DNA of 34,552 bases, from the NCBI GenBank assembly GCA_015056125.1, contig SVGW01000027.1, positions 1 to 34,552 on the forward strand, written 5' to 3'. Each line of letters begins with the position of its first letter. The first letter of the stretch is position 1. Positions 2,081 through 26,496 of the stretch are shown here, in pieces. A program made the position numbers and the translations under genes. This DNA comes from Clostridiales bacterium (GTDB lineage: Bacteria; Bacillota; Clostridia; Christensenellales; Aristaeellaceae). The notes below the pieces were generated by a model that ran no database searches, was not told where the DNA came from, and saw only the letters and a list, made by a program, of their open reading frames with translations.

Positions 2081-2081
2081 A

Positions 2082-6759: not shown

Positions 6760-6767
<8 letters not shown>

Positions 6768-7752: not shown

Positions 7753-7830
7753 TCCCTTCTCTTCCCTACTTTGTTCATCAATGCGGAAATCCCGTATTTT
7801 TGAAAAAAATATTTTTTAGGAGGACCTATC

Positions 7831-9615: not shown

Positions 9616-9648
9616 TTTTCTGCAGAGATTTCTGTTGAAACAGCTTGG

Positions 9649-9681
9649 CGGCTGGCATTCGTAAGGATGCCAGCCGTTTTT
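9649..9681 (+). terminator. Rho-independent terminator of opp operon 1
   Basis: A perfect 10-base-pair stem, CGGCTGGCAT with ATGCCAGCCG, has an eight-base loop and is followed by TTTTT. It lies 33 bases after the stop of the solute-binding protein gene. Confidence 0.9.
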
Positions 9682-9942
9682 CATTACAACTTCCACATCC
9701 TTTCTTCTGTTTTTTTGATATATTTTTATATTGTTTTTATGAATAAACCAAATCCAACAAATTCATAACGAAAAATCCAAGGAATCATTACCATTTTGTG
9801 CAGTTTGCATACAATCAAAGTTCAAAAAGTTTTGGTTCAAATGGGTTGTATTTTGCCGTATTATCTGGTAAAATATATCTTGTGTGTTACTATGCACTTG
9901 TTGATTTATCATCAATGAATTACATTATAGGGGGAACCAAAA
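9682..9942. other. AT-rich intergenic leader, no gene seen
   Basis: About 260 bases without a credible reading frame. They hold long T runs, a pair of GTTCAAA direct repeats (9820-9826 and 9835-9841) just upstream of the promoter of the EF-G-like gene, and that promoter. The direct repeats could be a regulator site, but nothing in the window identifies one. Confidence 0.5.
9846..9874 (+). promoter_or_regulatory. Extended -10 promoter of the EF-G-like gene
   Basis: TTGTAT (9846-9851), a 17-base spacer ending TGG and TAAAAT (9869-9874, one mismatch) form an extended -10 promoter about 70 bases before the start codon. Confidence 0.5.
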
Positions 9943-12024
9943 ATGGCTGACTATCAGACCGAAAACATCCGCAATATTGCCTTGATTGGTCATGGCAGCG
10001 AGGGCAAGACCACGCTGGCCGAGGCCATGCTCTACGCTGCTGGTCATGTGGACCGTCAGGGCAAGGTAGAAGACGGCGCCGCCACTACCGACTTTGATCC
10101 CGAAGAACTCAAGCGCCATATTTCTCTGAGCGCTGCTATCGCTCCCGTGGAATGGAAGGGCACCAAGATCAACGTGATCGACGTTCCCGGTTATTTTGAT
10201 TTCATCGGCGAAATGATGGGTCCCCTCCGCGTAGTGGAAACTGCCGGTATCGTTGTGGGCGCTGTGAGCGGCCTCACCGTGGGCGCTGAAAAAGCCTGGG
10301 ATTTCTCCAAGAAGAATAACGTATCTCCTATGTTCATCGTGAACCGTATGGATACCGAAAACGCCAACTATCAGAAGGTTGTGGATCAGCTCCGGGATAA
10401 GTTCGGCACCAGCGTTGTTCCCATGCTGCTGCCCATCGGCGCCGGCGCTTCCTTCAAGGGCGTTGTAAACGTGCTGGAAAATAAGGCTTACGAAGGCACC
10501 GGCAAGGGCCTGAAGGAAGTTCCCGTTCCCGCCGATATGGCCGATGCCATCGCTTCCGCCATGGAAGAAATCACCGAAGCCGCTGCCGGCGCTGATGATG
10601 AGCTGATGATGAAGTTCCTGGAAGGCGAAGAGCTGACCCACGAAGAAATCCTCTTTGGTTTCCGTGAAGGCATGAAGACCGGCGCCATCGTGCCCGTGAT
10701 TGCCTGCTCTGCCACTACCGGCGTTGGCGTTGCCAAGCTGCTGGATATGATGAGTGTCTATCTCCATTCCCCCGTGGGTGTCAAACTCGAGGGCGAAAAT
10801 CCCAAGAACGGCGAAAAGGTTGAGCGCACCTGCGATAACAACGAGCCCTTCTCTGCCTTCGTTTACAAGACCATCGCCGACCCCTTTGTTGGCAAGCTGT
10901 CTCTCTTCCGGGTGTGCTCCGGTACCATCACCCCTGCCACCGCCCTGTATAATGCCAATGCCGAAAAGGCTGAAAAATCCGGCGGCCTGTTCATGATGCG
11001 CGGCAAAAAGCAGAGCAACGTGAACCAGCTCAACGCTGGCGATCTGGGCGCTCTGTCCAAGCTCCAGTACACCAATTCCGGCGATACCCTGTGCGATGCC
11101 TCCAATCCTGTAAAGTATGCCCCCATCGCCTATCCCATCCCCTGCATCTCCAAGGCCGTCTACGCTGCCAAGCAGGGTGAAGAAGATAAGGTGTTCTCTG
11201 GTCTGGCCCGCCTTCAGGAAGAAGATCCTTCCATCAAGGTTGAAAAGAACGTGGAAACCACCGAAACCCTGGTTTCCGGTCAGGGCGAACTGCATCTGGA
11301 TATTATCCGCGCCAAGCTGGCTTCCAAGTTCGGCGCTCAGGCCAACCTGAACGATCCCAAGATTCCCTACCGTGAAACCATCCGCAAGAAGGTTGCCTGC
11401 CAGGGCCGTCACAAGAAGCAGTCCGGTGGCCATGGCCAGTTCGGTGATGTGTGGATCGAATTCTCCCCCATCGGCGATACCAATATTGACTTTGAATTCG
11501 AAGATGCCGTTGTGGGCGGCGCCGTACCGCGCAACTTCATCCCCTCTGTTGAAAAGGGCCTGCGCGAAAATATCGTCAAGGGTGTTCTGGCCGGCTATCC
11601 CATGGTTGGCCTCCATGCCAAGCTGTATGACGGTTCCTATCATCCCGTAGACTCCTCTGAAATGGCGTTCAAGACCGCTGCCCGCATTGCTTACAAGAAG
11701 GGCTGCATGGATGCCAGCCCCGTGCTGCTTGAGCCCATCATGCACGTGGAAGTGTTTGTTCCCGATGAATACATGGGCGACATCATGGGCGATATGAACA
11801 AGCGCCGCGGCCGTATCATGGGCATGGATCCCATTGATGGCCTGCAGCGGGTTACCGCCGAAGCTCCTATGGGCGAAATGTTCAAGTATGCCACCGATCT
11901 TCGCTCCATGACTCAGGCCCGCGGTTCCTTCACGATGTCCTTCGAGCGTTATGAAGAAATGCCCACTGATGCTGCCAAGAAGATCATCGAAAATGCCCAG
12001 AAGGACGAGGACGAAGAAGAATAA
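9943..12024 (+). CDS. Elongation factor G-like translational GTPase (EF-G paralogue)
   Basis: A 693-residue protein with EF-G domain order: GTPase (1-280), beta-barrel domain II, then the domain III-V block ending in the EF-G C-terminal fold. GTP motifs are G1 GHGSEGKTT (16-24), G3 DVPGY (80-84) and G4 NRMD (134-137). Canonical EF-G has GHIDAGKTT and DTPGH. The histidine that activates the hydrolytic water is Tyr84 here, and switch I is also unlike FusA (RHISLS). These changes are typical of the EF-G-like (EF-G2) paralogue group in Clostridia, Thermotoga and actinobacteria, so it is probably not the housekeeping factor; no rpsL/rpsG/tuf neighbours support that. GGGGGAACC precedes the start. 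Codon use is highly biased, implying strong expression. Its ribosomal role is not established. Confidence 0.92.
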   Translation: MADYQTENIRNIALIGHGSEGKTTLAEAMLYAAGHVDRQGKVEDGAATTDFDPEELKRHISLSAAIAPVEWKGTKINVIDVPGYFDFIGEMMGPLRVVETAGIVVGAVSGLTVGAEKAWDFSKKNNVSPMFIVNRMDTENANYQKVVDQLRDKFGTSVVPMLLPIGAGASFKGVVNVLENKAYEGTGKGLKEVPVPADMADAIASAMEEITEAAAGADDELMMKFLEGEELTHEEILFGFREGMKTGAIVPVIACSATTGVGVAKLLDMMSVYLHSPVGVKLEGENPKNGEKVERTCDNNEPFSAFVYKTIADPFVGKLSLFRVCSGTITPATALYNANAEKAEKSGGLFMMRGKKQSNVNQLNAGDLGALSKLQYTNSGDTLCDASNPVKYAPIAYPIPCISKAVYAAKQGEEDKVFSGLARLQEEDPSIKVEKNVETTETLVSGQGELHLDIIRAKLASKFGAQANLNDPKIPYRETIRKKVACQGRHKKQSGGHGQFGDVWIEFSPIGDTNIDFEFEDAVVGGAVPRNFIPSVEKGLRENIVKGVLAGYPMVGLHAKLYDGSYHPVDSSEMAFKTAARIAYKKGCMDASPVLLEPIMHVEVFVPDEYMGDIMGDMNKRRGRIMGMDPIDGLQRVTAEAPMGEMFKYATDLRSMTQARGSFTMSFERYEEMPTDAAKKIIENAQKDEDEEE

Positions 12025-12032
12025 TTCATTTA

Positions 12033-12057
12033 AGCTCGGCGTTTGCCGGGCTTTTTT
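12033..12057 (+). terminator. Rho-independent terminator after the EF-G-like gene
   Basis: An eight-base-pair stem (12033-12040 with 12045-12052, one G-U pair) has a GTTT loop and is followed by six T. It lies only 23 bases before the next start codon. Either some transcription reads through or the coiled-coil gene has a promoter inside the EF-G-like gene. Confidence 0.75.
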
Positions 12058-12079
12058 CTTCAGTCAGGAGGTTGTTTCC

Positions 12080-13393
12080 ATGAAAAAATTAGCATGGCTT
12101 ACGGTTGCCATTTTTCTGGCTGCGGTTGTTCTGGTGGGTGTCCTTTGGAATCAAAGCAGTCAGTTGGAAAGTTCTCTCGCTGCTTTAGAATCGGAAAAAG
12201 CAAGGGAAACGGCGCAATTGAAAGCGGATTCAGAGGCTGCGGTAGCTTTACTTCAAGGCGAACTGAATGCTGCATATGAAAACGCACAAAATGATGCTGC
12301 GCTTTATGAAGCGGCGCTGGCGGATGCATATGCGCAAATCGAAGTATTAGAGCAGGAAATGGACAATATGCTGACTTTGGCGCAGCATGAAGAGGAAATT
12401 GATGCCGTCCAAGATGCCCTTCTCAGCCAGATCGATGCGTTAAATCATCAAATCACCGATCTGCAGGCAAAGGGAGAACTTATGTCCGCTGCATTAAACG
12501 CTAAAGAACAAGATAACGCTTCCTGCCTTGAACAAATTCGCGTACTGAATGATCAACTCGTCGGAATGCACTCTCAGAGCGATTTGGAAGCCGCCGTTGC
12601 AAATGCTATCCAGGATACGGCTGATCCATTAAACGCCGCCATCCAGGCCCTGGAGGCCCAAGTTGCCGGGATGTATACCCAGGCACAACTGGATATCGCC
12701 GTATCTGCAGGAAAAGCAGAAGCGGAAGCGCCTCTCCTTGAACAAATTCACGCACTTCATGAGCAAATCGCCGGAATGCACGCTCAGAGCGATCTGGAGG
12801 CCGCCGTTGCAAATGCTATCCAGGAATCCTCCGGTCCGTTGATCGCCCAAATTCAGGCCTTGGAGGCGCAAATAGAGCGCATGTATACGGAAGATGAATT
12901 GAATGCTGCCGTTGATGCTGCTAAGAAAGAAGCAGAGCAGCCTCTCTTAAATGAATTGGAGGCCTGGGCTGCAAAAGCCGATGCCTTGGTGAAGGAGGCT
13001 CTGACCACCGCTGCTCAGGAAGCAGAAAAGACCAAAGATGCCTTTCTTGCATCGGATTTGGGCAAGGATCTTGTGCAGGCTAAGGATGATCTTACCGCAG
13101 CGCTCTCTCAAATCACTTCCCATTCCCAAATTGTATCCGCTTTGCTCCCAGTGGCTGATTGGATGATCCAGCAGGGCTTGGTGGAAGATATAGAAATTCA
13201 GATCACGATTCGGCAAGGAGAAGTGACCCAAACACTGTTCTACTCCGGCGCCACGCTTTCTTCTCTGAACCTGGATGCGTTGAATGACACCGCCTACGAA
13301 ATGAACATTACCGTCCTGGATAAAGAAGGAAACGAATTAACGACCTATACATTTCAGCATGTCCCTTCATTCGATGAAAATGCCGTTGGATGA
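12080..13393 (+). CDS. Membrane-anchored coiled-coil repeat protein of unknown function
   Basis: A 437-residue protein not recognised as a named family. One N-terminal hydrophobic segment (residues 4-23), without a clear cleavage site, suggests a single-pass anchor with the rest outside. Residues 27-330 are almost entirely Ala/Glu/Gln/Leu-rich coiled coil. Residues 150-289 are four consecutive 35-residue units (five heptads each), alternating GMH(S/A)QSDLEAAVANAIQ and (G/R)MYT..(Q/E)L types and each ending near PL; a degenerate fifth unit precedes them at 115-149. The C-terminal 90 residues form a separate mixed domain (VEDIEIQITIRQGEVTQTLFY). The start is ATG 12080 after CAGGAGG; the frame is open upstream only as a by-product of the EF-G-like gene. 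It could be a surface spacer or scaffold; this is a guess. Confidence 0.85.
   Translation: MKKLAWLTVAIFLAAVVLVGVLWNQSSQLESSLAALESEKARETAQLKADSEAAVALLQGELNAAYENAQNDAALYEAALADAYAQIEVLEQEMDNMLTLAQHEEEIDAVQDALLSQIDALNHQITDLQAKGELMSAALNAKEQDNASCLEQIRVLNDQLVGMHSQSDLEAAVANAIQDTADPLNAAIQALEAQVAGMYTQAQLDIAVSAGKAEAEAPLLEQIHALHEQIAGMHAQSDLEAAVANAIQESSGPLIAQIQALEAQIERMYTEDELNAAVDAAKKEAEQPLLNELEAWAAKADALVKEALTTAAQEAEKTKDAFLASDLGKDLVQAKDDLTAALSQITSHSQIVSALLPVADWMIQQGLVEDIEIQITIRQGEVTQTLFYSGATLSSLNLDALNDTAYEMNITVLDKEGNELTTYTFQHVPSFDENAVG
12527..12946 (+). repeat. Two tandem 210-base coding repeats
   Basis: Two copies of a 210-base unit (12527-12736 and 12737-12946) lie in frame within the coiled-coil gene, each encoding two 35-residue subunits. 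The first half of each copy is much better conserved between copies than the second half (for example GCCGCCGTTGCAAATGCTAT is identical in both). This points to recent duplication or gene conversion of that segment. Confidence 0.85.
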
Positions 13394-13396
13394 AGC

Positions 13397-13428
13397 AAAA
13401 AAGCGAAGGAAGCGTTTCCTTCGCTTTT
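13397..13428. terminator. Bidirectional terminator between convergent genes
   Basis: A perfect 13-base-pair stem (13399-13411 with 13416-13428) has a four-base loop, an A run on its left and four T on its right, so it can end transcription from both sides. It serves the coiled-coil gene on the plus strand and the opp2-alr operon on the minus strand. Confidence 0.88.
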
Positions 13429-13441
13429 CAATTGCACATTT

Positions 13442-14581
13442 TTAGCACGTTTCTTCCATCTCAGCGCTGACAGTCACTACCTGCCCACTGCGCAGATATA
13501 TCCTTGGAACCCTTCTGCCGATAAGCCCCAGGCATTCATTGCGGTTTAGATGGCCCCAAGCTGCATATTCCTGGAGGGTGATTTCATTACCCATAAGGGT
13601 AGCAACATCCCCAGCCTGCGTCTGTGGAATCTCTGTCACATCCACCATCATCTGGTCCATGCATACCAGGCCCAGTACAGGGGCACGTTTGCCATGAATA
13701 GATACAAAGCCTTTTTGCGACAGCACCCGAGGATAACCATCAATATATCCGGCAGAAATGGTGGCTACCAGCGTGTCCTTTTCAAGGGGGGTATCATCAT
13801 ATCCCACCCCTTCCCCTTTTTTTACCCAGGCCACCCGGGTGATCCGGGCCTTCAGCGCCATCACTTGCTTGCCTTCAGAAAAACGTTCCCACGCTGGTGG
13901 CACGTTGCCATAGAGAAATGCCCCAACCCGCACGGCATCCATCTGCCACTGCGGGTAACGGGTCAGGCCGATGGAATCCACCAAATGCCGCATAGGCACA
14001 GGAAAGCCCAGTGATTCCATTTCATCTACCAAGCCGGTAAACAACTTTTCCTGGGCAATACTTTGCTCACGGCTCCTGAGCGCCAGATGACTATATACAC
14101 CCTCAATTTTCAGGCCGGGCATGGATAGAATGGGGATGGTGCTCTTTGCATCTTCAAATCCCAGGCGATGCAAGCCGGTATCCAATTTAACCTGAATGAT
14201 CGCAGGCATACCCAGGGCGCTGGCAGCATCAGAAGCCAGCTTCGCATCCTGGCACGAACCCACCGTGAGCGAAATTCCCTGCTGAATCAGCACAGGAAGA
14301 TAGCTTTCCTCGGCAGGGCTCAGCAGCAGCACATGGGCCTTGGGCGCAGCACGGCGGGCAGTAAGCGCCTCTTCCGGTGCAGCCACGGCAAACCAGTCCG
14401 CGCCAGCCTCAGCCAGCGTTTTCACTGCACGAAAAAGGCCAAGTCCATATGCATTGGCCTTCACCACGCAAATAAACTTGGTCTTTTCTTCGCACAGTGA
14501 TCGGGCCAAGCGGTAATTATCCAGGAAAGCATCCTCATCCACTTCGGCCCATGCGCGGGCCATGGCACGATCCAGATTCAT
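13442..14581 (-). CDS. alr: Alanine racemase
   Basis: A 379-residue PLP enzyme that interconverts L- and D-alanine, supplying D-Ala for peptidoglycan. The PLP-binding lysine is Lys41 in VVKANAYGLG. The barrel continues with MRHLVDSIGLTRYP and the family segment RVGAFLYG. The C-terminal beta domain holds GVGYDDT, with the catalytic tyrosine, and ISAGYIDGYPR. Length and motifs are normal. It is the last gene of the second opp operon: its ATG is three bases after the oppF stop and its GGAGG site lies inside oppF, so translation is probably coupled. Having alr as the last gene of a peptide importer operon is unusual and hints that the importer has to do with cell-wall peptides. Confidence 0.95.
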   Translation of the reverse strand: MNLDRAMARAWAEVDEDAFLDNYRLARSLCEEKTKFICVVKANAYGLGLFRAVKTLAEAGADWFAVAAPEEALTARRAAPKAHVLLLSPAEESYLPVLIQQGISLTVGSCQDAKLASDAASALGMPAIIQVKLDTGLHRLGFEDAKSTIPILSMPGLKIEGVYSHLALRSREQSIAQEKLFTGLVDEMESLGFPVPMRHLVDSIGLTRYPQWQMDAVRVGAFLYGNVPPAWERFSEGKQVMALKARITRVAWVKKGEGVGYDDTPLEKDTLVATISAGYIDGYPRVLSQKGFVSIHGKRAPVLGLVCMDQMMVDVTEIPQTQAGDVATLMGNEITLQEYAAWGHLNRNECLGLIGRRVPRIYLRSGQVVTVSAEMEETC

Positions 14582-14584
14582 TTT

Positions 14585-15526
14585 TTATTCCTCCGCAAGC
14601 TGCTTGCGATATTTCTCTAATTCTGCCTGGTTGCCCCGCACAAAATGATTAGGCTCAATTTCGCACCACTGGGGCTGATCTTTGCTATAATCATGCATGG
14701 ATTCATCGTAGATCAGCGGCGGCGCATCCTGGCGATGATCAGGGGAAGGCATGGGCACGGCAGAAAGCAGCGCCTGGGTATAGGGATGCAAGGGATGGCG
14801 GAAAAGCGTTTCCGTATCCGCCAGTTCCATCAATAGGCCTTTATGGATAACAGCAATCCGATCACAGATGAAGCGCATCACAGAAAGATCGTGAGAGATA
14901 AACAGATAGGTCAGTCCACGCTTTTTCTGCAGATCAGAGAGCAAATTGAGCACCTGCGCACGAATGGATACGTCCAGCGCCGAGATCGGCTCATCCGCTA
15001 CGATGAACTCCGGCTGCATAATCAACGCCCTGGCAATACCGATGCGCTGGCGCTGTCCACCGGAAAACTCATGGGGAAAGCGGCTGGCAAATTCAGGCAG
15101 AAGGCCCACATCCATTAGCGCCGCATCCACCTTTTCCTTGCGTTCCTGGGTGGTTAAATGCTTATCTACGTTGTAAAGCCCCTCGGCCACAATATAGTCC
15201 ACCTTGGCGCGCTCGTTCAGGGAAGCCATGGGATCTTGGAAAATCATCTGAATTTTCCTTGTTACCTCCCGGTCCAATTCCTTGCTGATGGCGCCATTAA
15301 TCTTCTGGCCCTTAAAGACCACTTCGCCGCCAGCCGTTTCATAAATGCGGATCACAGCGCGGCCAATGGTCGTTTTTCCAGAGCCGGATTCACCTACCAA
15401 GCCAAAGGTCTCGCCCTTATAAATATCAAAGCTCACGCCGCGAACGGCATAAAAGGGCTTCCGCCGCGAACCGAACGCCACCTTCATATCCTTGACAGAA
15501 AGCAGCACTTCCTTCTTTTCGCTCAT
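14585..15526 (-). CDS. oppF: Oligopeptide ABC importer ATPase OppF/AmiF-type (system 2)
   Basis: A 313-residue ATPase with Walker [10 protein letters not shown], signature [10 protein letters not shown], Walker [14 protein letters not shown] and H-loop SHDLSV. The C-terminal extension differs from OppF of system 1. Instead of cysteines it has [14 protein letters not shown] and [17 protein letters not shown], the pattern of streptococcal AmiF and lactococcal OppF, so no Fe-S cluster is expected. The start is ATG 15526 with GGAGGAAATCTG before it. It shares one base with the oppD stop (TGATG). Longer upstream reading in the same frame is ignored because it lacks a ribosome site. Confidence 0.95.
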
Positions 15527-16560
15527 CAGATTTCCTCCCCTCTCTTGAGCCTGCTCAGCACTTCCGGAGGCTCCACCTTGGGTGCACGGGGATCCAGCAG
15601 CCACGTTCTGGCCTTATGAGTGGGCGATACTTCAAAGAAGGGAGGACGTTCTTCAAAATCGATTTTCAACGCATGCGGATTCCGGGGCGCAAATGCATCT
15701 CCCTTGATTTCCAAGAAAAGATTGGGCGGAGTGCCCTTGATGGAAAACAACTCTTCTCCCTTCACGCCCAGCTGCGGCAGCGAAGAGAGCAGCGCCCAAG
15801 TGTAGGGATGGCGTGCATCATAAAAAACTTCCTGGCTGGTGCCAATCTCCACGATATCACCGGCATACATCACCGCCACCCGATCCGCCACATTGGCCAC
15901 CACCCCAAGGTCGTGGGTGATGTACACGGTGGTCAATTCATACTTGCGCACCAATTCCCGGATCAGATGCAGAATCTGGGCCTGAATGGTTACATCCAAA
16001 GCCGTGGTGGGTTCATCGCAGATCAGGATTTTCGGCTTGCATGCAATGGCAATGGCAATGACCACGCGCTGACGCATGCCGCCGGAGAACTCATGAGGAT
16101 ACTGCTTCGCCCGGCGTTCGGGCTCGGTGATCCCCACGTCCGTCAAAGTTTCAATCATTCGCTGATGGGCAGCGGCACCGGTCAGGTTCTGATGAAGCTT
16201 CAGGGCCTCTTCAATCTGAGCCCCAATAGTCTTTAAGGGGTTCAGGCTGGTCATGGGGTCCTGCAGCACCATGGCAATTTCCTTACCGCGGATGGTGAGC
16301 CATTCTTTTTCCGCAGTATACTTGGCCAAATCCTGGCCATTGTAGAAAATACTGCCGCTATCAATCCAGCCGTTGGTATCCAGCAAGCCCATAAAGGTTT
16401 TTGTAAGCACAGATTTCCCCGAACCGGACTCCCCCACGATCGCCAAAGTTTCACCCTTGTACAGATCCAAGGATACTCCACGAATGGCATGAAGCACTTT
16501 CCCCCGCAGGGAGAATTTCACATTCAAATCCTGCACAGACAGGATCGGCGTTTTTTCCAT
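15526..16560 (-). CDS. oppD: Oligopeptide ABC importer ATPase OppD/AmiE-type (system 2)
   Basis: A 344-residue ATPase with Walker A GESGSGKS, signature FSGGMRQRV, Walker [14 protein letters not shown] and H-loop ITHDLGVV. In the C-terminal extension the four cysteine positions of the Fe-S type are Asp288, Asn294, Asp301 and Arg318 ([22 protein letters not shown]). This matches the AmiE/lactococcal OppD branch. The start is ATG 16560, seven bases after GAGGAGGAG; a GTG 18 bases upstream lies before that ribosome site and is rejected. It forms a heterodimer with the OppF of the next gene. Confidence 0.95.
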
Positions 16561-16574
16561 GAATGCACTCCTCC

Positions 16575-17936
16575 TCACAGGTGATTTTTAGGATCAGCAG
16601 CATCCGCAAAGGAGTTGCCAATGATGTAGAAAGAAATCGTGATGATGGACAATACAATCGTGGGAAACACCAACTGATAGCTGGCAGAAGTGGCCAGCAG
16701 CATACGGCCTACATTGATCAGATTGCCCAGAGAAGGGATGCTGATGGGCAGGCCCAGGCCGATATACGTGATAAATACCTCGCTGCCGATAGCGCCGGGC
16801 ACAGAGAGTGCCATGCGCAGCGTGATAACCGATACCAGATAGGGCAAAAGATTGCGGGTGATGATCCGGAAAGTACCCGTACCCAGGCAGCGGGAAGCCA
16901 GATTGTAATCTCGATCCCGAATAATCACGATCTGGTTGCGCACAAACCGCGCCATCCCTACCCACCCTGTCAGGCTCATGGCAAAAATCAGTGTAGATAC
17001 ACCAGGACGCATGATATAGGATACCAGAATCAGCACAATGGTGGTGGGAATATTATCGATAATATTATACACTTCCGTCAGCAGCCGATCCAAAGAGCGC
17101 ACATAGCCCCACAGCACGCCAATCAGGATACCAATCATCGCCTGGCAGAAAGCCACTACGATACCGATCAGAAGAGACGTGCGCGTACCGGACCACACCA
17201 TCGCCCACAAATCCTGACCGGCATTATTGGTGCCAAAGAGGAAGGGACGGGTATCAGGCAGCAAGCGAAGCTCTGATTTTTCAATGGTTATGGCATTACC
17301 GTCTTCCAGCATTTTCACCGAGGACTTTTTCACAAACAGTTCATCGCCGTTATAAGTCAACACATTAGGCGTAGTGAAAATCTCAATTTTATAATTGGAC
17401 TTTGCTTCATAGGGCGTGTTTTCGTAGTCATCGGGCAGTTTCAGCTTGGTAGTGAAGTCGTTCTTTACATAGCCCGTCTTTCCCTTGTATTCCACCTTGC
17501 AAAAATCGCTTCCATATTCCAAAACGGTGAAATTTTCACGCCGGGGAATGGAAGAAAGCACATTGCTCACTGCCAGCCACTCTTCATTTTCCCAGGGAGT
17601 GACAATCAGAAGCGTATCTTTTTCCGCAGTAGCTTCCACGTTGGTCACCCGGGGCTTCACATTCATCATCTGCATTCCTGTAATAGGATGATCGATTACC
17701 AGGTTGGCAGGATACTGATTGGGAAGATAGGGCTGAATCATCGTGAACAAAAGCAGCAGCACCAGCACCGTCATAAATACCATCGCTGCCTTATTTTTCA
17801 GAAAGCATCGAAAGGTGCTCCCCCAATATGAATAATTGGAATAGCCAGCCTTTTCAGCAGCCGCACTGTCATAGGCGGCAAACTGAAACATGGAATTTTC
17901 CAAAGGCTGAGAAATATGATCCTTAATTCCCTTCAT
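16575..17936 (-). CDS. oppC: Oligopeptide ABC importer permease OppC-type with extracytoplasmic SH3b-like insertion (system 2)
   Basis: A 453-residue permease, about 150 longer than usual OppC. Residues 1-50 are a cytoplasmic N terminus and 51-68 membrane helix 1. An extra external region (about 70-232) follows before the family motif FGTNNAGQDLWAMVWSGTRTS (in two parts, from 234). The remaining helices and EAA loop (LASRCLGTGTFRIITRNLLPY) are normal, ending DAADPKNHL. Inside the insertion, residues 120-166 match the second half of a bacterial SH3 domain: ENFTVLEYGSDFCKVEY then KGKTGYVKNDF. SH3b domains usually bind cell-wall peptides. The start overlaps the oppB stop by one base (TGATG). Whether the insertion binds wall or substrate, or only stabilises the receptor, is unknown. 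Confidence 0.93.
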   Translation of the reverse strand: MKGIKDHISQPLENSMFQFAAYDSAAAEKAGYSNYSYWGSTFRCFLKNKAAMVFMTVLVLLLLFTMIQPYLPNQYPANLVIDHPITGMQMMNVKPRVTNVEATAEKDTLLIVTPWENEEWLAVSNVLSSIPRRENFTVLEYGSDFCKVEYKGKTGYVKNDFTTKLKLPDDYENTPYEAKSNYKIEIFTTPNVLTYNGDELFVKKSSVKMLEDGNAITIEKSELRLLPDTRPFLFGTNNAGQDLWAMVWSGTRTSLLIGIVVAFCQAMIGILIGVLWGYVRSLDRLLTEVYNIIDNIPTTIVLILVSYIMRPGVSTLIFAMSLTGWVGMARFVRNQIVIIRDRDYNLASRCLGTGTFRIITRNLLPYLVSVITLRMALSVPGAIGSEVFITYIGLGLPISIPSLGNLINVGRMLLATSASYQLVFPTIVLSIITISFYIIGNSFADAADPKNHL

Positions 17937-18898
17937 CAGCGCGCACCCTCTTTCTTGGTCAGGCTGATTCTGGGATCAATCACAGCCATCAGCAAATCGC
18001 CCAGGATCATGCCCACAATCCCGATGCAGGAATAAATCATTACAATCGCCTGCACCATGGGGTTATCCTGACGGGTAATCACGTCCACCAGCAAGCCACC
18101 CATACCGGGAATGGAATAGAGGGATTCAATATAGATGGAGCCGCCCACAGTATACAAAAGAGAAGTGGGAATATACTGAATCATCGGCACAAAAGCGTTG
18201 CGGAACACATGGCGCATGGTGATTTTCTTGCTATCCACACCCTTTGCCCGAGCAAGACGCACATAATCCTTATTCAGTTCGTCCACCATGTACCGCCGCA
18301 GCCACATGGCATAATAGGCAATATTGCCAAGGGACATGGAAAACACCGGCAAAATCCAGGAAACCCAATTTTCCCGGTCAAATAACATACCCACCTGCAA
18401 AAGCTGAGTACCATAGGATTGGATATAAATATAATACACTGCCGAGGGAACGGCATTCACCAGCACAATAAACACCGTGCCGAATTTATCCCAAAATTTG
18501 CTCTTGGAGCGCGCCATAGCAGCACCCAGTGGAATACCCAGAATCATGGCGACAGCCATGGAAAGAACGCCCAACTGAATGGACAGAGGGGCTTTTGCAG
18601 CCACGATCTGCGCAATGGGTACGCCGCGGCTGTAACGGGCAGAAGTACCCAAATCTCCCTGCAGCAGATTCAGGAAGAAATCCTTCAACTGAACCCAAAT
18701 AGGATCATTCAGGCCCATTTTATCCAATGTTGCCTGGATAACCGCTTCGTCCAGCTTATCAATGTTCTCAAAATAACCGTCAATAGGCATCTGGCGAACC
18801 ATTACAAAAACAATTGTAAGAATAATCACCAGTGTAAGAACAGATTGACCGATGCGCTTCAGTAAATACTTTGCCAATTTGTCAACATCCTTTGACAC
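17936..18898 (-). CDS. oppB: Oligopeptide ABC importer permease OppB-type (system 2)
   Basis: A 320-residue permease with an N-terminal helix (about 16-35). The external segment LDEAVIQATLDKMGLNDPIWVQL and GDLGTSARYSRGVP are family hallmarks. The EAA loop is YVRLARAKGVDSKKITMRHVFRN and the C terminus VIDPRISL. The start is uncertain. GTG 18898 lies two bases after a strong hairpin and has no free ribosome site. TTG at 18877 has AAAGGA ten bases before it and would give MAKYLLKRIG, which aligns with most OppB starts. The GTG start is annotated. The gene follows the solute-binding protein and overlaps oppC by one base. Confidence 0.93.
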   Translation of the reverse strand: MSKDVDKLAKYLLKRIGQSVLTLVIILTIVFVMVRQMPIDGYFENIDKLDEAVIQATLDKMGLNDPIWVQLKDFFLNLLQGDLGTSARYSRGVPIAQIVAAKAPLSIQLGVLSMAVAMILGIPLGAAMARSKSKFWDKFGTVFIVLVNAVPSAVYYIYIQSYGTQLLQVGMLFDRENWVSWILPVFSMSLGNIAYYAMWLRRYMVDELNKDYVRLARAKGVDSKKITMRHVFRNAFVPMIQYIPTSLLYTVGGSIYIESLYSIPGMGGLLVDVITRQDNPMVQAIVMIYSCIGIVGMILGDLLMAVIDPRISLTKKEGAR

Positions 18899-18900
18899 TC

Positions 18901-18939
18901 ATTTGCGGCAGGAAGGGACGATCCCCTCCTGCCGCAAAT
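18901..18939 (-). promoter_or_regulatory. Strong intercistronic hairpin between SBP and oppB (system 2)
   Basis: An 18-base-pair inverted repeat (18901-18918 with 18922-18939, one G-U pair in the minus transcript) has a three-base loop. It sits 30 bases after the solute-binding protein stop and directly before the oppB start. No U run follows it, so it is not a standard terminator. The only GGAGG-like sequence upstream of oppB lies inside the stem. It may stabilise the upstream message and lower translation of the permease genes. Confidence 0.8.
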
Positions 18940-18969
18940 TCAATCTAATCCGTATAAATCACTTGGATC

Positions 18970-20829
18970 TCAGTTCTGAGAGAGCGCTTCTTCCTTGGCA
19001 GCCTCATAGGCGTCCCAAGCATCATAGAAAGCATCAGTATCCATATAATCATCCAGCTTGTACTGGCCCTTATAGCGCTCGGTGGTCAGGCCGAAGGGGG
19101 CCACGGGAGCAGAGAAGGGATCCAGCAGGGAGGCAGTATAGCCGCCTACGCCATGGCCATAAGGCAGCACGTAAGCATGGTTGATCAGGTAGGCTTCCGC
19201 TTCCGCAAAGGCCAGATAACGGGCAGAAATATCATCGGTGATGGCCTTAGCATTTTCTACCAGCGCATAGTAGCCTTCGATGCATTCAGTATCGGTGGAT
19301 TCGCCGATGAAGCTGTAGCTGTTGCCTTCGCGAACGAAGGGATCGGTGAAGGTTTCGGGGTCTGCATAGTCGGGGCCCCAGTTGCAGTTCATCATGGCAT
19401 ACATGCCGGTGCGGCGGGCGGTGTTGTAGCTGGTGGCGGGGCCGGATTCGATGATGATATCAATGTAATCAGTGCCCAGCACGCCTTCCAGCTGCTGTTC
19501 CACAATCTGGGCCTCTTCAGCAGAGTTATTGGCGGAAGTGGAGGGATTATAAAGCCACAGAATCTTCACAGGGAAGGTAGCCTTGCCTTCCAGTTCCTTC
19601 ATAGCGGCGTCCTTATACTGCAGGGCAGCGTCCAGATCCATCATATCGGCGCCCTTGGCGGTAATTTCAGCCAGAGAGCCCAGGTTCACAAAGTCCACAC
19701 CATTGTCATAGACGAAGGTAGGCGGAGTGATGGTGTTGAAAATCATAGATTCGGGATTTTCAGCGTCCACCAGGGTCTTGGTCTTGATGCGGTTAAATGC
19801 ATTCACAATGGACTTACGGAAGTTTTCGTTGTTCACAGCCACCTTCCAGTTATCGGGCTCGTAGGCCGCGTCAAACTTGGGATCGAAGTTGAAAGTGTAG
19901 AAATAGCTGTAATAGGTGGTGATGCGAGCAGGATGGATCTTGGCCGCCTTTTCTTCGTCCATCAGCCAGTCTTCCACCAATTCGGTCTTCAGGGAAGCGG
20001 CATCCACTTCGCCGTTGAGGAACATGGTGGGAGATACAGCAGTAGATTCCTTGTTGCACTTTTCAATGATCTTGTCAATATGCACGTTGTCGGCATCCCA
20101 GTTCTCATGGTTCTTGGCCAGCACCCGGGACTCCTGAGACTTGAATTCGTCCAGATAGAAAGCGCCGCAGTAGAGCAGGGTATCATTGCCGGTGGCAAGG
20201 CCAAAGTTTTCGCCCTGAGCGGTGAGGAAGGGCTCATATACGGGCATGAAGTTCACGTAAGTGAGCATGGAAAGGAAATAAGGAACGGGCTTGGACAGGG
20301 TGTACTGCAGGGTATAATCGTCCACAGCCTTTATTCCGACAGTATTCCAATCCAGAACGGCGGCAGGATCCACGCCCTCTATCAGGATAGCGGTTGCATC
20401 ATAATATACCTTTGCCCCTTCAATCACGTCATAGAGAATATCGGCGGTAGCAGAAGCGTTCTTGGCATTGAGAATGTACTTGGCAGCGGCCACAAAGTCA
20501 TTGGCAGTCACATTCGCCACAACCTTGCCATCACCGTCCACCCAGGTAGCGTCCTGGCGCAGCTTGAAGGTCCAGGTCAAGCCTTCATTGGAGGATTCCC
20601 ATTCCAGGGCCAGAGAAGGCTGCATCCGGCCATACATATCATATTCCACCAGGGTATCAATGATATTGGCCGCGATGGCAAATTCGTTGGTAGAAGAGGT
20701 TACCAGGTAATTCAGAGTGGTCACTTCGCTGGAATACAGCGTAGTGTAAGTGACTTCGTCTTCGGCCACGGCGCATACAGAGCTCATCAGCATCATGGCG
20801 CACAGCAGTAAAGAAATCCACTTTTTCAT
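18970..20829 (-). CDS. Peptide-binding protein, SBP_bac_5 family (system 2)
   Basis: A 619-residue solute receptor at the head of the second opp operon. The signal peptide is 22 residues, ending CAVA before EDE, with type I cleavage and no lipobox around either cysteine. Family marks are VTTLNYLVTSS near the N terminus, PSLALEWESSNEGLTWTF near residue 75, LRQDATWVDGDGK, and NWGPDYADPETFTDPF near residue 480. The DGDGKVVANVTANDF variant resembles AmiA/OppA-type oligopeptide receptors more than DppA. GAAGGGAG lies about 12 bases before the ATG. Its codon use is strongly biased, less so than the system 1 receptor. Ligand class (peptides, possibly wall peptides) is inferred from family and neighbours only. 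Confidence 0.94.
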   Translation of the reverse strand: MKKWISLLLCAMMLMSSVCAVAEDEVTYTTLYSSEVTTLNYLVTSSTNEFAIAANIIDTLVEYDMYGRMQPSLALEWESSNEGLTWTFKLRQDATWVDGDGKVVANVTANDFVAAAKYILNAKNASATADILYDVIEGAKVYYDATAILIEGVDPAAVLDWNTVGIKAVDDYTLQYTLSKPVPYFLSMLTYVNFMPVYEPFLTAQGENFGLATGNDTLLYCGAFYLDEFKSQESRVLAKNHENWDADNVHIDKIIEKCNKESTAVSPTMFLNGEVDAASLKTELVEDWLMDEEKAAKIHPARITTYYSYFYTFNFDPKFDAAYEPDNWKVAVNNENFRKSIVNAFNRIKTKTLVDAENPESMIFNTITPPTFVYDNGVDFVNLGSLAEITAKGADMMDLDAALQYKDAAMKELEGKATFPVKILWLYNPSTSANNSAEEAQIVEQQLEGVLGTDYIDIIIESGPATSYNTARRTGMYAMMNCNWGPDYADPETFTDPFVREGNSYSFIGESTDTECIEGYYALVENAKAITDDISARYLAFAEAEAYLINHAYVLPYGHGVGGYTASLLDPFSAPVAPFGLTTERYKGQYKLDDYMDTDAFYDAWDAYEAAKEEALSQN

Positions 20830-20901
20830 GCTTCGTTTTCTCCCTTCTTCTTTCTAAAATAGGCCCAACCGGCATACATATCCGGTTGATGGATGTGATA
20901 A

Positions 20902-20930
20902 AGCATACCACATATAGGACAAAATTTCAA
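20902..20930 (-). promoter_or_regulatory. Extended -10 promoter of opp operon 2
   Basis: On the minus strand TTGAAA (20925-20930, one mismatch), a 17-base spacer ending TGG and TATGCT (20902-20907) form a good promoter. The leader that follows has a small AACCGG/CCGGTT hairpin about 50 bases before the start codon. The remaining bases to 21060 are AT-rich and show nothing else. Confidence 0.6.
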
Positions 20931-21059
20931 GCTTGTGTACAATCAATTTCATCATAGTTCCTGATTTTCCATTGTTTTTTCCATGTATCGCCTCCATATT
21001 GTATCAATTTTGAATTTTCCAAATTTTCATATTGCATTTTTATCTGTAATTTTTCATAT

Positions 21060-21104
21060 TAAAAGAAAAGAAATGACAGAACAGAGCATTTTTGCTCCAT
21101 TCTG
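21060..21104 (-). terminator. Rho-independent terminator after the SpoIID-type gene
   Basis: A 12-base-pair stem (21077-21088 with 21093-21104, two G-U pairs in the minus transcript) has a four-base loop and is followed in the minus direction by a U-rich stretch (TCATTTCTTTTCTTTT). It lies 12 bases after the stop codon. Confidence 0.8.
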
Positions 21105-21115
21105 CCCATTTCTGA

Positions 21116-22123
21116 TTACCATAATTTTTCCACGGTCACATTCTGAAAATAATACGTAACGATTTCTTCGGCCGTTTCGCCTTCCTGCGCCATTTGATAA
21201 GCGCCCCACTGAGGCATGCCTACCCCGTGGCCGTATCCCTTTCCTTCCATAATAATTTTCCCATCGTCTTTTACCAGGCTGCTCAGAAGCGTAGATCGCA
21301 TTACGGAAGAGCCCAGGGCAATTCTCAGTTCGGGAGCAGAAACGGCATACCCGTTAATCAGGATCGTTTCCGCCCGTCCACTCTTTCCTGTTTTCCCTGT
21401 TTGAATGGAATCGATCTGGGCGATATTTTCATTGAGCCCAGCTTTTTTGGCCGCTGCGATCACTTCTTTTTCCGTGAAAACCGCACGCCATTCCCTGGCC
21501 TCCTCCGGCGCCTGATCGCTTTCCCGCCCATCCGTTATTTGGGTATATCCAGGTTCTTCTTTATTATAGGCAAGCCCTTCCCTGGCCAAGGCGGTTGTGC
21601 CGCCAGAATGCGCATGAAACCAGGCGTAGGGCAATTCTCCTCCATAGGAAAGCACCAGTCCTTCCGTTTCCTTGACCGCTTGCTCGATCCTTTCGTTGAT
21701 GCCTGTATCATCATATGCCTGCGCCTCTTCAATATCGGTGGAGATATCAGCACTTTCATATTTGCTTTCTTTTTCCGTGCAGAATTTCAGCACGAAGGTT
21801 CGCGCCAATATTGCCTGCGCTTTTAATGCTTCCAAGGGCCAATCATTCTTCATTTCACCAGCCAGCACCCCCAGAAGGTAGGTTTCGATGTCCATTTCCT
21901 TGGTTTCTTCTTCATCCGTTTGATATACGTTCAGCACGGGAATGCCTGCCTCATTTTTCTCCAGCTTCTCCGGCAGCGCAGGCTTTTTGCTCTGCTGCTC
22001 ATGTCCCAAAGGTACTTTGGTCTGTTCTTGCTCATTTTCTGCGCTTCCGGAGCAGCCGCTCAGAATCAGCATGCCTGCCAGTAGCAGAATCATCCATCTT
22101 TTTTTATTCCATTTCTTTTTCAT
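21116..22123 (-). CDS. SpoIID/LytB-domain lipoprotein
   Basis: A 335-residue protein with a lipoprotein signal peptide ending LILSGC, so lipid-anchored to the outer face of the membrane. The SpoIID domain follows. IETYLLGVLAGEM carries the catalytic-type glutamate; EALKAQAILARTFVLKF and WFHAHSGGTT are typical, and it ends GYGHGVGMPQWGAYQMA. In Bacillus, SpoIID is a peptidoglycan lytic transglycosylase that cuts denuded glycan strands during engulfment. Many related proteins act outside sporulation. There is no spoIIQ or other sporulation gene here, so the role may be general wall turnover. The start is ATG 22123 with GAGGGGG upstream; a TTG codon directly before it is not used. Confidence 0.92.
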   Translation of the reverse strand: MKKKWNKKRWMILLLAGMLILSGCSGSAENEQEQTKVPLGHEQQSKKPALPEKLEKNEAGIPVLNVYQTDEEETKEMDIETYLLGVLAGEMKNDWPLEALKAQAILARTFVLKFCTEKESKYESADISTDIEEAQAYDDTGINERIEQAVKETEGLVLSYGGELPYAWFHAHSGGTTALAREGLAYNKEEPGYTQITDGRESDQAPEEAREWRAVFTEKEVIAAAKKAGLNENIAQIDSIQTGKTGKSGRAETILINGYAVSAPELRIALGSSVMRSTLLSSLVKDDGKIIMEGKGYGHGVGMPQWGAYQMAQEGETAEEIVTYYFQNVTVEKLW

Positions 22124-22218
22124 CAAAAAAATTCCCCCTCCACGGCATTATCTTGGCCTGCAGCCCTCAATGCCATGCAGGGGAAATTTCAGGAAATTTT
22201 TATTTATTTGCCGTCAAC

Positions 22219-23571
22219 TTAGCCCACAGGAATATCCCACTGCACCCCCAGCACTTCGTTCAGGCGAACGAAGGTCTTGGTGCCGGCGATACCATCCACA
22301 GTCAGGCCCTGGGTGCGCTGGAAGCGCATCAAAGCAGAACGGGTCTTGGGGCCAAACTTGCCATCATCCTCGCCATCGGCCAAATGGCCCAGCTGGATCA
22401 GCTGCTGCTGCAACTTCTTAACGGCCGCGCCGCTGCTGCCCTGCTGCAACTTGGTCACATTGGCGCCAACGGCAGGCTTGCTGGGATCCACTACATCGGG
22501 CTCAGCATTGGACACATTCAGCGTCTTGATCACAGCCCAGGTAGCGGGCCCGATCACGCCATCCTGCTTAAGGCTGTAATCCTTCTGCAGGGCCAGCACG
22601 GCAGCCTTGGTCTTAGGCCCAAAGATGCCATCGGCATTGCCCAGCAGATAGCCGGCAGCCTTAAGCCTCATCTGGGCATTGGCCACATCGTTGCCGTAAG
22701 AACCATTGCGCAAGGAACGCTCGGTGTAGGGATCATCCACGGTGCCCTGGTTCTGCTTGTCTTGTTCTTCCTGGTTATTGACCGTGCTGGGCCAGAGATA
22801 GCGGCGCACGATATTGGCAGCGATACCATCGGCCTTGAGGCCATTGGCGGTCTGGAACGCCTTGACGGCAGCCACAGTATCCGCGCCATAGTAGCCGGAA
22901 GGAGAAATGGAGAGATAGTTCAGGGACACCAGCTTCTGCTGGAGCACATACACATCGTAGCCCCGGGCACCGGAAGAAAGAGTGCGCACAGGAATACCGC
23001 CGTTAAAAATCTTGGCACTGCGGTTATAAAGGGCGTCCTTGGTCTTGGGGCCCGCCTTGCCATCCACGGTCAGGCCCGCAGAAGCCTGGAACCATTTTAC
23101 CGCCCGGAGCACATCGGAGCCGAAAACGCCATCAATTTTTCCCACATAGTAGTAGGCACTGCGCAGCTGGCGCTGCAATTCCTTTACATTTTCGCCGCTC
23201 ATGCCATACTGCATCGTGGCCTGATACTGCACATCCGCTTTGGATACCGCATCATCAGTATTGAGCAGGGCCAGGGTGGCGGCGCCGATCCGCCCGTCCA
23301 CAGTCAGGCCGTTAGCGCTCTGGAAGGCCTTCACGGCGCTGAGCACGCCGTTGCCAAATTTGCCATCCAGGGTATTGGAATAGAAGCCGTACATCTTCAG
23401 CCGCTTCTGGGCCTGGAGCACGTCTTCACCGCTCATGCCGTAAGTAAGGGTACGGCTGGTGGTGATGGTGGGCACGGTTTCTTCTGCACCGGCATCGGCT
23501 TCCGTCGCCATCGCCACGGCAGGCAGCAGCATTGCCAGCACCAGCAAAATAGCCAATAAACGCTTTTTCAT
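22219..23571 (-). CDS. Secreted protein with five PG_binding_1 repeats
   Basis: A 450-residue exported protein with a signal peptide (LLAILLVLAMLLPAVAMA, cleavage near residue 22) and no lipobox. After a short linker come five peptidoglycan-binding repeats of about 60 residues (roughly 46-102, 123-181, 200-258, 289-349, 376-437). Each has G..G.dV...Q..L...G, then DG.FG..T..Av..FQ...GL.vDG and a final G..T...L. A Gln/Asn-rich linker (265-285) splits repeats three and four. There is no catalytic domain. It probably sits in the wall as a binding or cross-linking protein. ATG 23571 has AGGAGG ten bases upstream. No clear terminator separates it from the SpoIID-type gene, so the two may be co-transcribed. 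Confidence 0.92.
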   Translation of the reverse strand: MKKRLLAILLVLAMLLPAVAMATEADAGAEETVPTITTSRTLTYGMSGEDVLQAQKRLKMYGFYSNTLDGKFGNGVLSAVKAFQSANGLTVDGRIGAATLALLNTDDAVSKADVQYQATMQYGMSGENVKELQRQLRSAYYYVGKIDGVFGSDVLRAVKWFQASAGLTVDGKAGPKTKDALYNRSAKIFNGGIPVRTLSSGARGYDVYVLQQKLVSLNYLSISPSGYYGADTVAAVKAFQTANGLKADGIAANIVRRYLWPSTVNNQEEQDKQNQGTVDDPYTERSLRNGSYGNDVANAQMRLKAAGYLLGNADGIFGPKTKAAVLALQKDYSLKQDGVIGPATWAVIKTLNVSNAEPDVVDPSKPAVGANVTKLQQGSSGAAVKKLQQQLIQLGHLADGEDDGKFGPKTRSALMRFQRTQGLTVDGIAGTKTFVRLNEVLGVQWDIPVG

Positions 23572-23640
23572 TTCAAAAAAGCCTCCTCTCTCAGGATACA
23601 AGCAAACGGATAAAAAGGCACATGCTTGTTTCATGGTGCT

Positions 23641-23649
23641 ATTGTAGCA
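23641..23649 (-). promoter_or_regulatory. Candidate extended -10 element for the PG-binding gene
   Basis: TGCTACAAT reads on the minus strand about 70 bases before the start codon (TGC plus TACAAT, one mismatch to TATAAT). No good -35 box is present, which is common for extended -10 promoters. An AATTTACA/TGTAAATT inverted repeat lies further upstream (23694-23718), just after the end of radA. Confidence 0.35.
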
Positions 23650-23746
23650 TAAACTATTCAAAAATCCTATTCCAGAATTGTTTCAAAATGCGTAATTTAC
23701 ATGTAACAACTGTAAATTCCCACTTTCTTGCACCGGATTATCCCTA

Positions 23747-25132
23747 TCAGGAGGAGGGCAGCAGGTCCAGCACCGCCATGGCTTGGGCCACTGTATCCAC
23801 GCCGTGCAAGATAACGCCATCAGGCACTTTGATTTTTTTGGCGCTGTCACGGGGACAAAGAAGGTGCGTGAAGCCCAGACGCTGGCATTCTGCCGCCCTA
23901 TGCTCCAATTGGGAAATAGCACGCACTTCCCCTGCCAACCCCACTTCCCCCATCACCGCCCAATCCCCTGGAATCACCCGGTCGGTGTAGGAAGAGGCTA
24001 CCGCCATGCAAAAGGCCAAATCCGCAGCAGGTTCATTGAGGGAAAGCCCCCCTGCCACGTTGATGTAAGCGTCCCGGTTATACATTTTAAGCCGTGCCCT
24101 TTTTTCCATTACGGCAAGCAGCAGCATCACGCGGGATGAATCCATGCCATCCACGGTACGCCGGGGAACGGCGTAAAAAGACTGGGTCACCAGCGCCTGA
24201 ATATCCACCAGCATGGGGCGGGAGCCCTCCAGCCCGCAAAATACGCAGGAGCCGCTGGCGCCCTTGGCCCGCTGGGAAAGCAGGGTTTCGGATGCATTTT
24301 TCACGGGGCGCATGCCCTCGCCTGTCATTTCAAAAATGCCCAGCTCATTCACCGAACCAAAACGATTTTTCACCGCTCTGAGCAGCCGGTATTCATGCTG
24401 ATGATCCCCTTCAAAATAGAGCACCACATCCACCATATGCTCCAGAATCCTGGGCCCGGCCAGGGCGCCTTCCTTGGTCACATGGCCCACCAGAAAAATA
24501 GCGCAGCCCTCGGTTTTGGCATAGCGCATCAATAGCGCCGCGCTTTCTCTTACCTGGCTCACGCTGCCGGGAGCACTCCCCATTTCCGGGCGATACATGG
24601 TCTGGATGGAGTCGATCACACAAAAATCAGGCTGCACAGCGCGCATTTTTTCCTCTACTGCGTCCATGGCATTTTCTGTGAGCACGATCATTTCGCTGTC
24701 CCTGGCTCCCAGGCGCTCGGCGCGCAGCTTAATCTGTCTTGCGCTTTCCTCACCGCTGATATACAAAACCCGCTTTCCCTGGCGAGATAAATAGGCGCAC
24801 ACCTGCAAAAGCAAGGTGGATTTGCCAATGCCCGGATCGCCGCCCACCAGCATCAGCGCCCCTTCCACAATGCCGCCTCCCAGCACCCGATCCAGTTCCG
24901 TGATCCCGCTGGGGGTATACAGCTGGGCGGTAGTTTCAATATCCTTCATGGGCACAGCTGCGCCGCCCGTTCCCCCGCGCTGCTTATACTGCTTGGGGGC
25001 CGGCTCGGTGTTATCCTGGAGCATGACTTCCTCCAAAGTATTCCATGCACCGCATTCCGGGCATTTTCCCAGCCATCTGGGGGTTTCATAGCCGCAGGCT
25101 GAGCATTGAAAGCTGCTTTTTTTCTTTGCCAC
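23747..25132 (-). CDS. radA: DNA repair protein RadA (Sms)
   Basis: A 461-residue ATPase involved in recombinational repair and branch migration. The N-terminal zinc finger uses Cys10, Cys13, Cys24 and Cys27 (CSACGYETPRWLGKCPEC). A RecA-like core has Walker A GDPGIGKS (98-105) and the aspartate of FCVIDSIQTM. The RadA-specific KNRFG motif follows (KNRFGSVNELGIFEM). The C-terminal third is the Lon-like domain (GGLSLNEPAADLA, GEVGLAGEVRAI). Length and motifs are normal. The start is GTG 25132 with GAGGG about eight bases before. It usually sits near clpC, disA or lysyl-tRNA synthetase in Bacillota; here it is alone, divergent from the phosphoesterase gene. Confidence 0.96.
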   Translation of the reverse strand: MAKKKSSFQCSACGYETPRWLGKCPECGAWNTLEEVMLQDNTEPAPKQYKQRGGTGGAAVPMKDIETTAQLYTPSGITELDRVLGGGIVEGALMLVGGDPGIGKSTLLLQVCAYLSRQGKRVLYISGEESARQIKLRAERLGARDSEMIVLTENAMDAVEEKMRAVQPDFCVIDSIQTMYRPEMGSAPGSVSQVRESAALLMRYAKTEGCAIFLVGHVTKEGALAGPRILEHMVDVVLYFEGDHQHEYRLLRAVKNRFGSVNELGIFEMTGEGMRPVKNASETLLSQRAKGASGSCVFCGLEGSRPMLVDIQALVTQSFYAVPRRTVDGMDSSRVMLLLAVMEKRARLKMYNRDAYINVAGGLSLNEPAADLAFCMAVASSYTDRVIPGDWAVMGEVGLAGEVRAISQLEHRAAECQRLGFTHLLCPRDSAKKIKVPDGVILHGVDTVAQAMAVLDLLPSS

Positions 25133-25245
25133 GTTTCTTCCCTCTTTTTAAGATAATACGATGCGATCCTCAGGCGCGCCCAAGTCGCTTTTTCATCGTC
25201 TTCTTCCCTTCTTCTTTCATTGAAACAAAAGCTTTTTCTGAGGTG

Positions 25246-25274
25246 AGTATAGCATAAAGAATTTTCCGGATCAA
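25246..25274 (-). promoter_or_regulatory. Extended -10 promoter of radA
   Basis: On the minus strand TTGATC (25269-25274), a 17-base spacer ending TGC and TATACT (25246-25251, one mismatch) make a strong extended -10 promoter about 115 bases before the radA start. Confidence 0.65.
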
Positions 25275-25337
25275 GAAAATACAGAAAATAAACCCCTATA
25301 TTTACAAAACTGTTCTCCGAAAGGGAACCTTTCTGCA

Positions 25338-25366
25338 TTGCATAAAAGAGCTTTTTCATATATAAT
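25338..25366 (+). promoter_or_regulatory. Promoter of the phosphoesterase-ppk operon
   Basis: TTGCAT (25338-25343), an exact 17-base spacer and a perfect TATAAT (25361-25366) lie 30 bases before the phosphoesterase start codon, leaving a very short leader. Confidence 0.65.
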
Positions 25367-25396
25367 GGTATCCAATCATTGGAAAGGAGTTTCTCC

Positions 25397-26476: not shown

Positions 26477-26496
26477 TTCAAAGGAAGCGATCTTCA

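Follow-up and report, generated by a model that had tools for sequence, protein, structure and literature searches.

We have focussed on the gene of an OppC-type permease in a stretch of 34,552 nucleotides (the window, by which we mean the whole stretch), positions 1..34,552 of the forward strand of contig SVGW01000027.1 from Clostridiales bacterium GCA_015056125.1 (Clostridia, Christensenellales, Aristaeellaceae). The permease carries a block of additional residues in one of its loops, and this insert is conserved, is predicted to fold on its own and, across the genome samples searched, occurs in only a part of the family. Sequence similarity and structural models indicate that it is very probably a folded SH3-type module. 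With a racemase gene and, in relatives, a carboxypeptidase gene behind the importer and a presumably outer SH3-type module, the simplest reading is that of a murein-peptide importer with a wall-facing module; we put the chances of this reading in full, i.e., an Opp/Ami-type OppC with a wall-facing SH3-type module serving murein-peptide import, at about even. In what follows, the long form is OppC with the insert and the short form comprises the homologues without it, while L- and G-numbers are labels of loci and genomes. The gene and the parts of its insert are:

16575..17936, minus strand: OppC-type permease with the insert, 453 amino acids, ATG start

17250..17651, minus strand: the insert, residues 96-229, delimited by alignment and loop lengths, absent from short homologues

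17454..17567, minus strand: SH3b-like stretch, residues 124-161, by Pfam SH3_3 and SH3b similarity

17250..17435, minus strand: second, beta-rich half of the insert, residues 168-229, with six strands in the AlphaFold2 model

The protein has the fold of an OppC-type permease. It exceeds the gathering scores of both BPD_transp_1 and OppC_N, domains that match all 26 long OppC proteins scanned, and a fold search with the whole model gave permeases only among the matches listed. Against the NCBIfam equivalog Opp3C it reaches 232.3 bits, below the curated 450, and against the MMSYN1_0166 OppC model 316.7 bits, below the cut-off of 370. In the AlphaFold2 model membrane helix 1 spans residues 49-70, the motif FGTNNAGQD residues 234-242, and the next helix begins at 243. 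The loop between residues 69 and 234 is 165-182 amino acids long in 37 long OppC proteins (that of the window included) and 26-93 in 42 short ones. Alignment and loop lengths agree that the surplus is a single block between helix 1 and the motif, as a first-pass annotation of this DNA had proposed; the block exists, but its size had been put at ca. 150 residues and is somewhat smaller, ca. 134 (96-229). The equivalence given there between residues 120-166 and positions 17439-17579 is correct. A frame error or an assembly artefact is ruled out, since the insert is common to 36 other long homologues.

The first half of the insert is similar in sequence to bacterial SH3 domains. The Pfam profile SH3_3 (PF08239) matches residues 124-161 with an E-value of 1.5e-5 and 25.5 bits, narrowly missing the gathering score of 27, and is found at E <=0.01 in 25 of the 26 long OppC proteins scanned (best 2.8e-6). 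Residues ca. 124-168 are 44-47% identical to the SH3b repeats of a 1440-amino-acid protein encoded in the same genome (best E-value 2.4e-5). The alignments used were chosen by eye for diversity: A1 (structure alignment, full length) with 57 of 79 OppC proteins, A2 and A3 with 26 and 25, respectively, of the 37 long ones, and A4 with 35 of 75 inserts. The profile of the 25 inserts in A3 found the SH3b repeats of the 1440-amino-acid protein at E-values of 5e-8 to 7.6e-7 and solved SH3b domains of wall-related proteins at 0.0013-0.009; the hhalign probability of 98.7% between insert and repeats is inflated, because the repeats had been picked with the same profile. Judged by these matches the SH3 signal exceeds chance, and the likeliest source of the insert would be a wall-associated SH3b domain of the same lineage. 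Among the aligned inserts W120 is invariant in both the set of 26 and that of 35, N125 is invariant in the former and nearly so in the latter, and R133 is invariant in the set of 26 only. The GC content of the two halves (0.465 and 0.432) is below that of the permease core (0.515) but similar to that of the N-terminal part (0.436), so that base composition speaks neither for nor against a recent foreign origin.

Structure prediction points in the same direction. In the AlphaFold2 model of the full protein the predicted local distance difference test score (pLDDT) is 80-96 in blocks over residues 71-240, and residues 86-231 modelled alone gave a confident fold with a mean of 89.2. The insert is beta-rich in the model, and its nearest solved folds are SH3 barrels (the best one circularly permuted) together with wall-binding domains of Listeria phages, all of them weak matches. 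The SH3-type fold that the first-pass annotation had proposed is supported by sequence similarity and by two confident models, and the outcome it had named as fatal, a predicted structure without any SH3-like barrel, did not arise, in that the model is rich in beta strands and has SH3-like neighbours. It had also read residues 120-166 as the end of such a domain; there is indeed an SH3b-like stretch there, but it is part of the larger 134-residue module, whose second half lacks SH3b similarity in sequence. When this second half (residues 163-231) was compared with the SH3b repeats, hhalign found no similarity (probability 0.3%); a circular permutation or a second SH3b repeat thus has no support in sequence, and the permuted-barrel reading comes from the fold ranking. 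In the boldest reading, the insert would consist of two interlaced SH3-like barrels, the first being a naturally occurring, circularly permuted SH3b domain; it would tether the ATP-binding cassette (ABC) importer to the wall and let it take up murein peptides at their point of release, so that capture or anchoring would be a task of the permease instead of the binding protein. We regard this as rather unlikely. The Listeria matches, to the endolysin wall-binding domains of phages A500 (6hx0) and PSA (1xov), touch on another alternative, in which the module would bind wall teichoic or lipoteichoic acid or some other wall polymer and have a role in anchoring or positioning but none in substrate capture. 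These matches are weak, with just 52-53 residues aligned, and no feature seen in the operon is suggestive of teichoic acid. We regard this alternative as improbable.

The long form is widespread within one family. At an E-value of 1e-20 it was found in 76 of 308 genomes of the family, belonging to 21 of 50 genera. A search of the family with the whole protein gave 77 long matches, among them one whose insert has diverged strongly (L266, genome G476) and an interrupted one (G578), and 42 short ones with core identities of 60-77%, counts that were made by hand from the list; 40 of the 42 short matches were read as loci. In wider samples, among 398 genomes from the phylum (E 1e-8) and 391 from the class (E 1e-10), the long form appeared only in the window's own genome, and the five strong matches in an order sample of 297 genomes were all from the same family; the weaker matches examined in that sample were SH3b domains of other proteins. 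Among viral contigs, ten stretches match a pattern and none codes for a relative. The insert is therefore not an unstructured or family-wide extension of Ami-type OppC proteins, the second objection foreseen by the first-pass annotation: it is modelled as a confident fold, and 42 short matches occur in the very same family.

In a tree built without the insert columns (67 rows, 12 of 79 having been left out as near-duplicates by eye) the long form makes a single clade, with a support of 95 in the Shimodaira-Hasegawa-like approximate likelihood ratio test. A larger tree of 122 rows, also without these columns, requires two changes: the main long clade has 73 members and a support of 97, and L266 stands apart from it. 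L267, with an OppC split into two pieces, is absent from this tree but present in the locus counts. The insert was gained at one main point in the history of the family, and L266 is one diverged case outside the main clade. The insert of L266 is 25% identical, and either a second gain or the loss of an old insert in its neighbours would account for its position. In close pairs (15 of the 25 listed out of 389, with a core non-synonymous divergence, dN, <=0.024), omega was 0.01-0.06 in the core, compared with 0.05-0.28 in the SH3b part and 0.05-0.21 elsewhere in the insert, while the other 10 listed pairs, more diverged, gave 0.17-0.76 and 0.19-1.11 for the two parts of the insert; the pairs have sequences in common and are not independent. 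As omega is low in the close pairs, the insert is kept by purifying selection, more loosely than the pore.

What the present analysis adds to the earlier observation is the gene neighbourhood of the long-form permease. In the window, genes for a binding protein, OppB, OppC, OppD, OppF and, last, an alanine racemase run along one strand, with two further genes upstream whose membership in the operon is uncertain:

22219..23661, minus strand: protein with PG_binding_1 repeats (PF01471, E 2e-95, five stretches), upstream, membership uncertain

21116..22126, minus strand: SpoIID-domain protein (PF08486, E 4.8e-24) with the lipobox LSGC, upstream, membership uncertain

18970..20829, minus strand: oligopeptide-binding protein, AmiA/Ali-like (SBP_bac_5, E 3.3e-50), no lipobox seen

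17936..18898, minus strand: OppB-type permease partner (BPD_transp_1, E 6.3e-35)

15526..16578, minus strand: OppD-type ATPase (ABC_tran and oligo_HPY)

14585..15604, minus strand: OppF-type ATPase (ABC_tran and oligo_HPY), its start being the mechanical start of the open reading frame

13442..14581, minus strand: second alanine racemase (TIGR00492, 247 bits, above the cut-off of 168)

The racemase of the operon aligns over residues 9-358 with solved racemases, best with 4ecl (named a serine racemase) and then with alanine racemases, and is 37% identical to another copy, at C76. Wall-related genes, those of the SpoIID and PG_binding_1 proteins, do lie upstream of this operon, but a SpoIID gene is upstream in only 7 of 75 long loci. 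At L161, a 550-amino-acid protein encoded ca. 5 kb upstream of OppC combines PG_binding_1-like repeats with an SH3b-like stretch and what may be a hydrolase end (domains assigned by eye). The window also contains a second opp system at 3477-9615 on the plus strand, with an OppC of 352 amino acids and an OppB of 393 with a longer N-terminus, and, at 11951-13393 on the plus strand, a 480-amino-acid open reading frame without NCBIfam match and with one weak Pfam match, which converges on the racemase gene.

The solute-binding proteins of the window (18970-20829, 7831-9615 and 32500-34110) have a signal peptide and no lipobox in any of them. This bears on the idea that the insert is a docking or retention module, holding a mostly non-lipid-anchored binding protein near the pore by its SH3-like surface. 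Among the long loci 60 of 62 binding proteins have no lipobox (by a simple pattern and a heuristic choice of start), while Lgt genes are present and the nearby SpoIID protein does have one, and the conserved W120, N125 and R133 could form a protein interface. However, short-form binding proteins of the same family lack it nearly as often (31 of 36), and so does the binding protein of the second Opp system with its 352-amino-acid OppC, so that a need for retention and the presence of the insert do not go together. By the simple pattern, absence of the lipobox is a trait of the lineage; retention as the sole reason for the insert is weakened, not removed, and we consider the docking idea doubtful. 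In a few binding proteins (L147 and L157 among the long loci; L186, L187, L188, L192 and L193 among the short) the N-terminus looks by eye like a membrane span rather than a cleavable signal.

To see which genes accompany the permease we read 75 long and 40 short wide loci; the window is in neither of the racemase counts that follow. When the count is confined to loci with >=6 kb of downstream sequence, OppC is followed by an alanine racemase gene on its own strand, with a start no more than 6 kb away, in 32 of 49 long loci against 1 of 26 short ones (Fisher 9.6e-8). An earlier count, 40 of 60 against 1 of 29, accepts short flanks when the gene is found, and the 6-kb count is the fairer one for that reason. 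The co-occurrence with alr for which the first-pass annotation had proposed to search is thus positive, if not made of independent events. Of the same loci, 11 of the 49 long and 2 of the 26 short ones have an S66 LD-carboxypeptidase gene no more than 9 kb downstream; in 10 of these 11 long loci it stands behind the racemase, in 8 with an M20 hydrolase between them, and the fullest order (OppF, racemase, M20, S66) is found in 8 loci. M20 genes are present in 12 of 75 long and 0 of 40 short loci. L147 and L217, two relatives in the genus of the window, have OppF, racemase and S66; L240 has OppF and S66. The S66 protein of L147 is closest among solved structures to the muramoyltetrapeptide carboxypeptidase 6uuk (E 3.1e-39), and its 177 bits are below the NCBIfam cut-off of 378 for that name. 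LD-carboxypeptidase is known to take D-Ala off the murein tetrapeptide, and alanine racemase to convert D-Ala and L-Ala into each other.

These enzymes also recur together in short-form genomes. Among 11 further second-racemase loci, 8 were from short-form genomes, and in them M20 is beside the racemase in 7 of 8 and S66 as well in 3 of 8; in the 3 from long-form genomes neither M20 nor S66 was found in the flanking DNA examined. As the grouping occurs in short-form genomes too, racemase, M20 and S66 are a recurring set, in long-form genomes often placed behind this importer. Across 30 genomes searched, long-form ones without a linked racemase have one elsewhere (e.g., G005, G025) or just the canonical copy (e.g., G006, G009, G019). 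At L279 (G025) the second racemase gene is preceded by one for SpoIID and one for a large PG_binding_1 protein, and no opp genes intervene.

The single main origin of the insert means that its neighbours may simply be co-inherited, and short relatives do without it. Both facts suit a last alternative, that of a structural or gating element (a pore cap or an assembly aid) whose SH3 ancestry says nothing of a ligand, with the racemase linkage hitch-hiking in one clade. Seven long loci (L156, L158, L160, L223, L224, L226 and L228) tell against it: they consist of binding protein, OppB, OppC and racemase as far as the contig reaches, without OppD or OppF, and the racemase has stayed beside OppC, although six of the genomes belong to a single genus and the seventh to another, so that just one or two events may be involved. 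We judge this alternative very unlikely. OppD is not nearby in 8 of 75 long loci in total, L259 being among them because its contig ends. Six of the seven genomes were searched for a related OppD: the best one is encoded elsewhere, in a frame of 449-691 amino acids, and the four at 685-691 may be OppD-OppF fusions.

If the importer does serve murein peptides, the insert would sit outside the membrane at the pore entrance, where the module would touch the wall or wall fragments and make more murein stem peptides locally available to the binding protein of the system. The importer would then bring the peptides in, and in operons with the full set LD-carboxypeptidase would remove the terminal D-Ala, the racemase would make L-Ala and the M20 hydrolase would degrade the remainder. 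The lysostaphin SH3b domain is reported to hold a wall cross-bridge peptide in a groove (PMC6461655). Taking its parts separately, we think it somewhat probable that the importer takes up murein peptides, while contact of the module with the cell wall is a little short of an even bet. Several points weigh against the murein-peptide reading. The long form is nearly one clade, leaving 2 pairs for a comparison of the linkage as independent events, and shared ancestry may explain why racemase and carboxypeptidase are linked to it. Genomes with the long form are not alone in having a second racemase, and the substrate of the operon racemase may be alanine or serine, its top solved relative being named a serine racemase, with alanine racemases next. 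No S66 gene, and so no LD-carboxypeptidase to accompany the importer as in a murein-peptide recycling operon (a working label rather than a curated family), was found in the window's genome as assembled (82% complete). The resemblance of the binding protein to AliB and AmiA is a further limit.

In peptide importers of this type, specificity is generally ascribed to a separate binding protein. A folded wall-type module that is built into the permease, and that occurs in 21 genera of one family, would give the pore itself a function facing the wall. The importer, the alanine racemase and, in relatives, the LD-carboxypeptidase make a candidate operon for the recovery of wall peptides in mostly uncultured gut and rumen Clostridia. 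Long and short forms sometimes occur within one genus, and at L215 and L216 the same contig has a short-form opp operon and a long-form one in tandem, their permeases ca. 6 kb apart; such cases open the effect of the insert to direct comparison. A literature search through titles and abstract openings, with most subscription journals outside its coverage, gave no description of such a permease or operon.

Among known systems, OppC of OppABCDF importers has been solved for E. coli (8z21) and M. tuberculosis (8j5s), and these chains lack any counterpart of the 134 inserted residues. Bacterial SH3 domains (PF08239; solved, e.g., in the autolytic lysozyme 4krt and the cell wall hydrolase 2kq8) align with residues 124-161 over profile positions 13-52 of 54, but the first strand is not recognisable by sequence in the insert, in which the SH3 part sits in a permease loop and is followed by an extra beta-rich half. 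The wall-binding domain of Listeria phage endolysins consists of two linked SH3-like barrels, and the title of one paper names SH3b-like repeats; neither 6hx0 nor 1xov is among the sequence-profile matches to solved SH3b domains. The pneumococcal Ami/Ali system provides the closest solved relatives of the window's binding protein (AliB, AliD, AliC and AmiA), and has a large external insert in AmiC, the OppB-type subunit. A precedent for the proposed job, the delivery of wall peptides to such a permease, is E. coli MppA, with which murein tripeptide reaches the permease of Opp or Dpp (PMC6022919). In that system, however, specificity resides in a separate binding protein outside the operon, whereas here the novelty is in the permease, and the racemase (with the carboxypeptidase in relatives) belongs to the operon itself.
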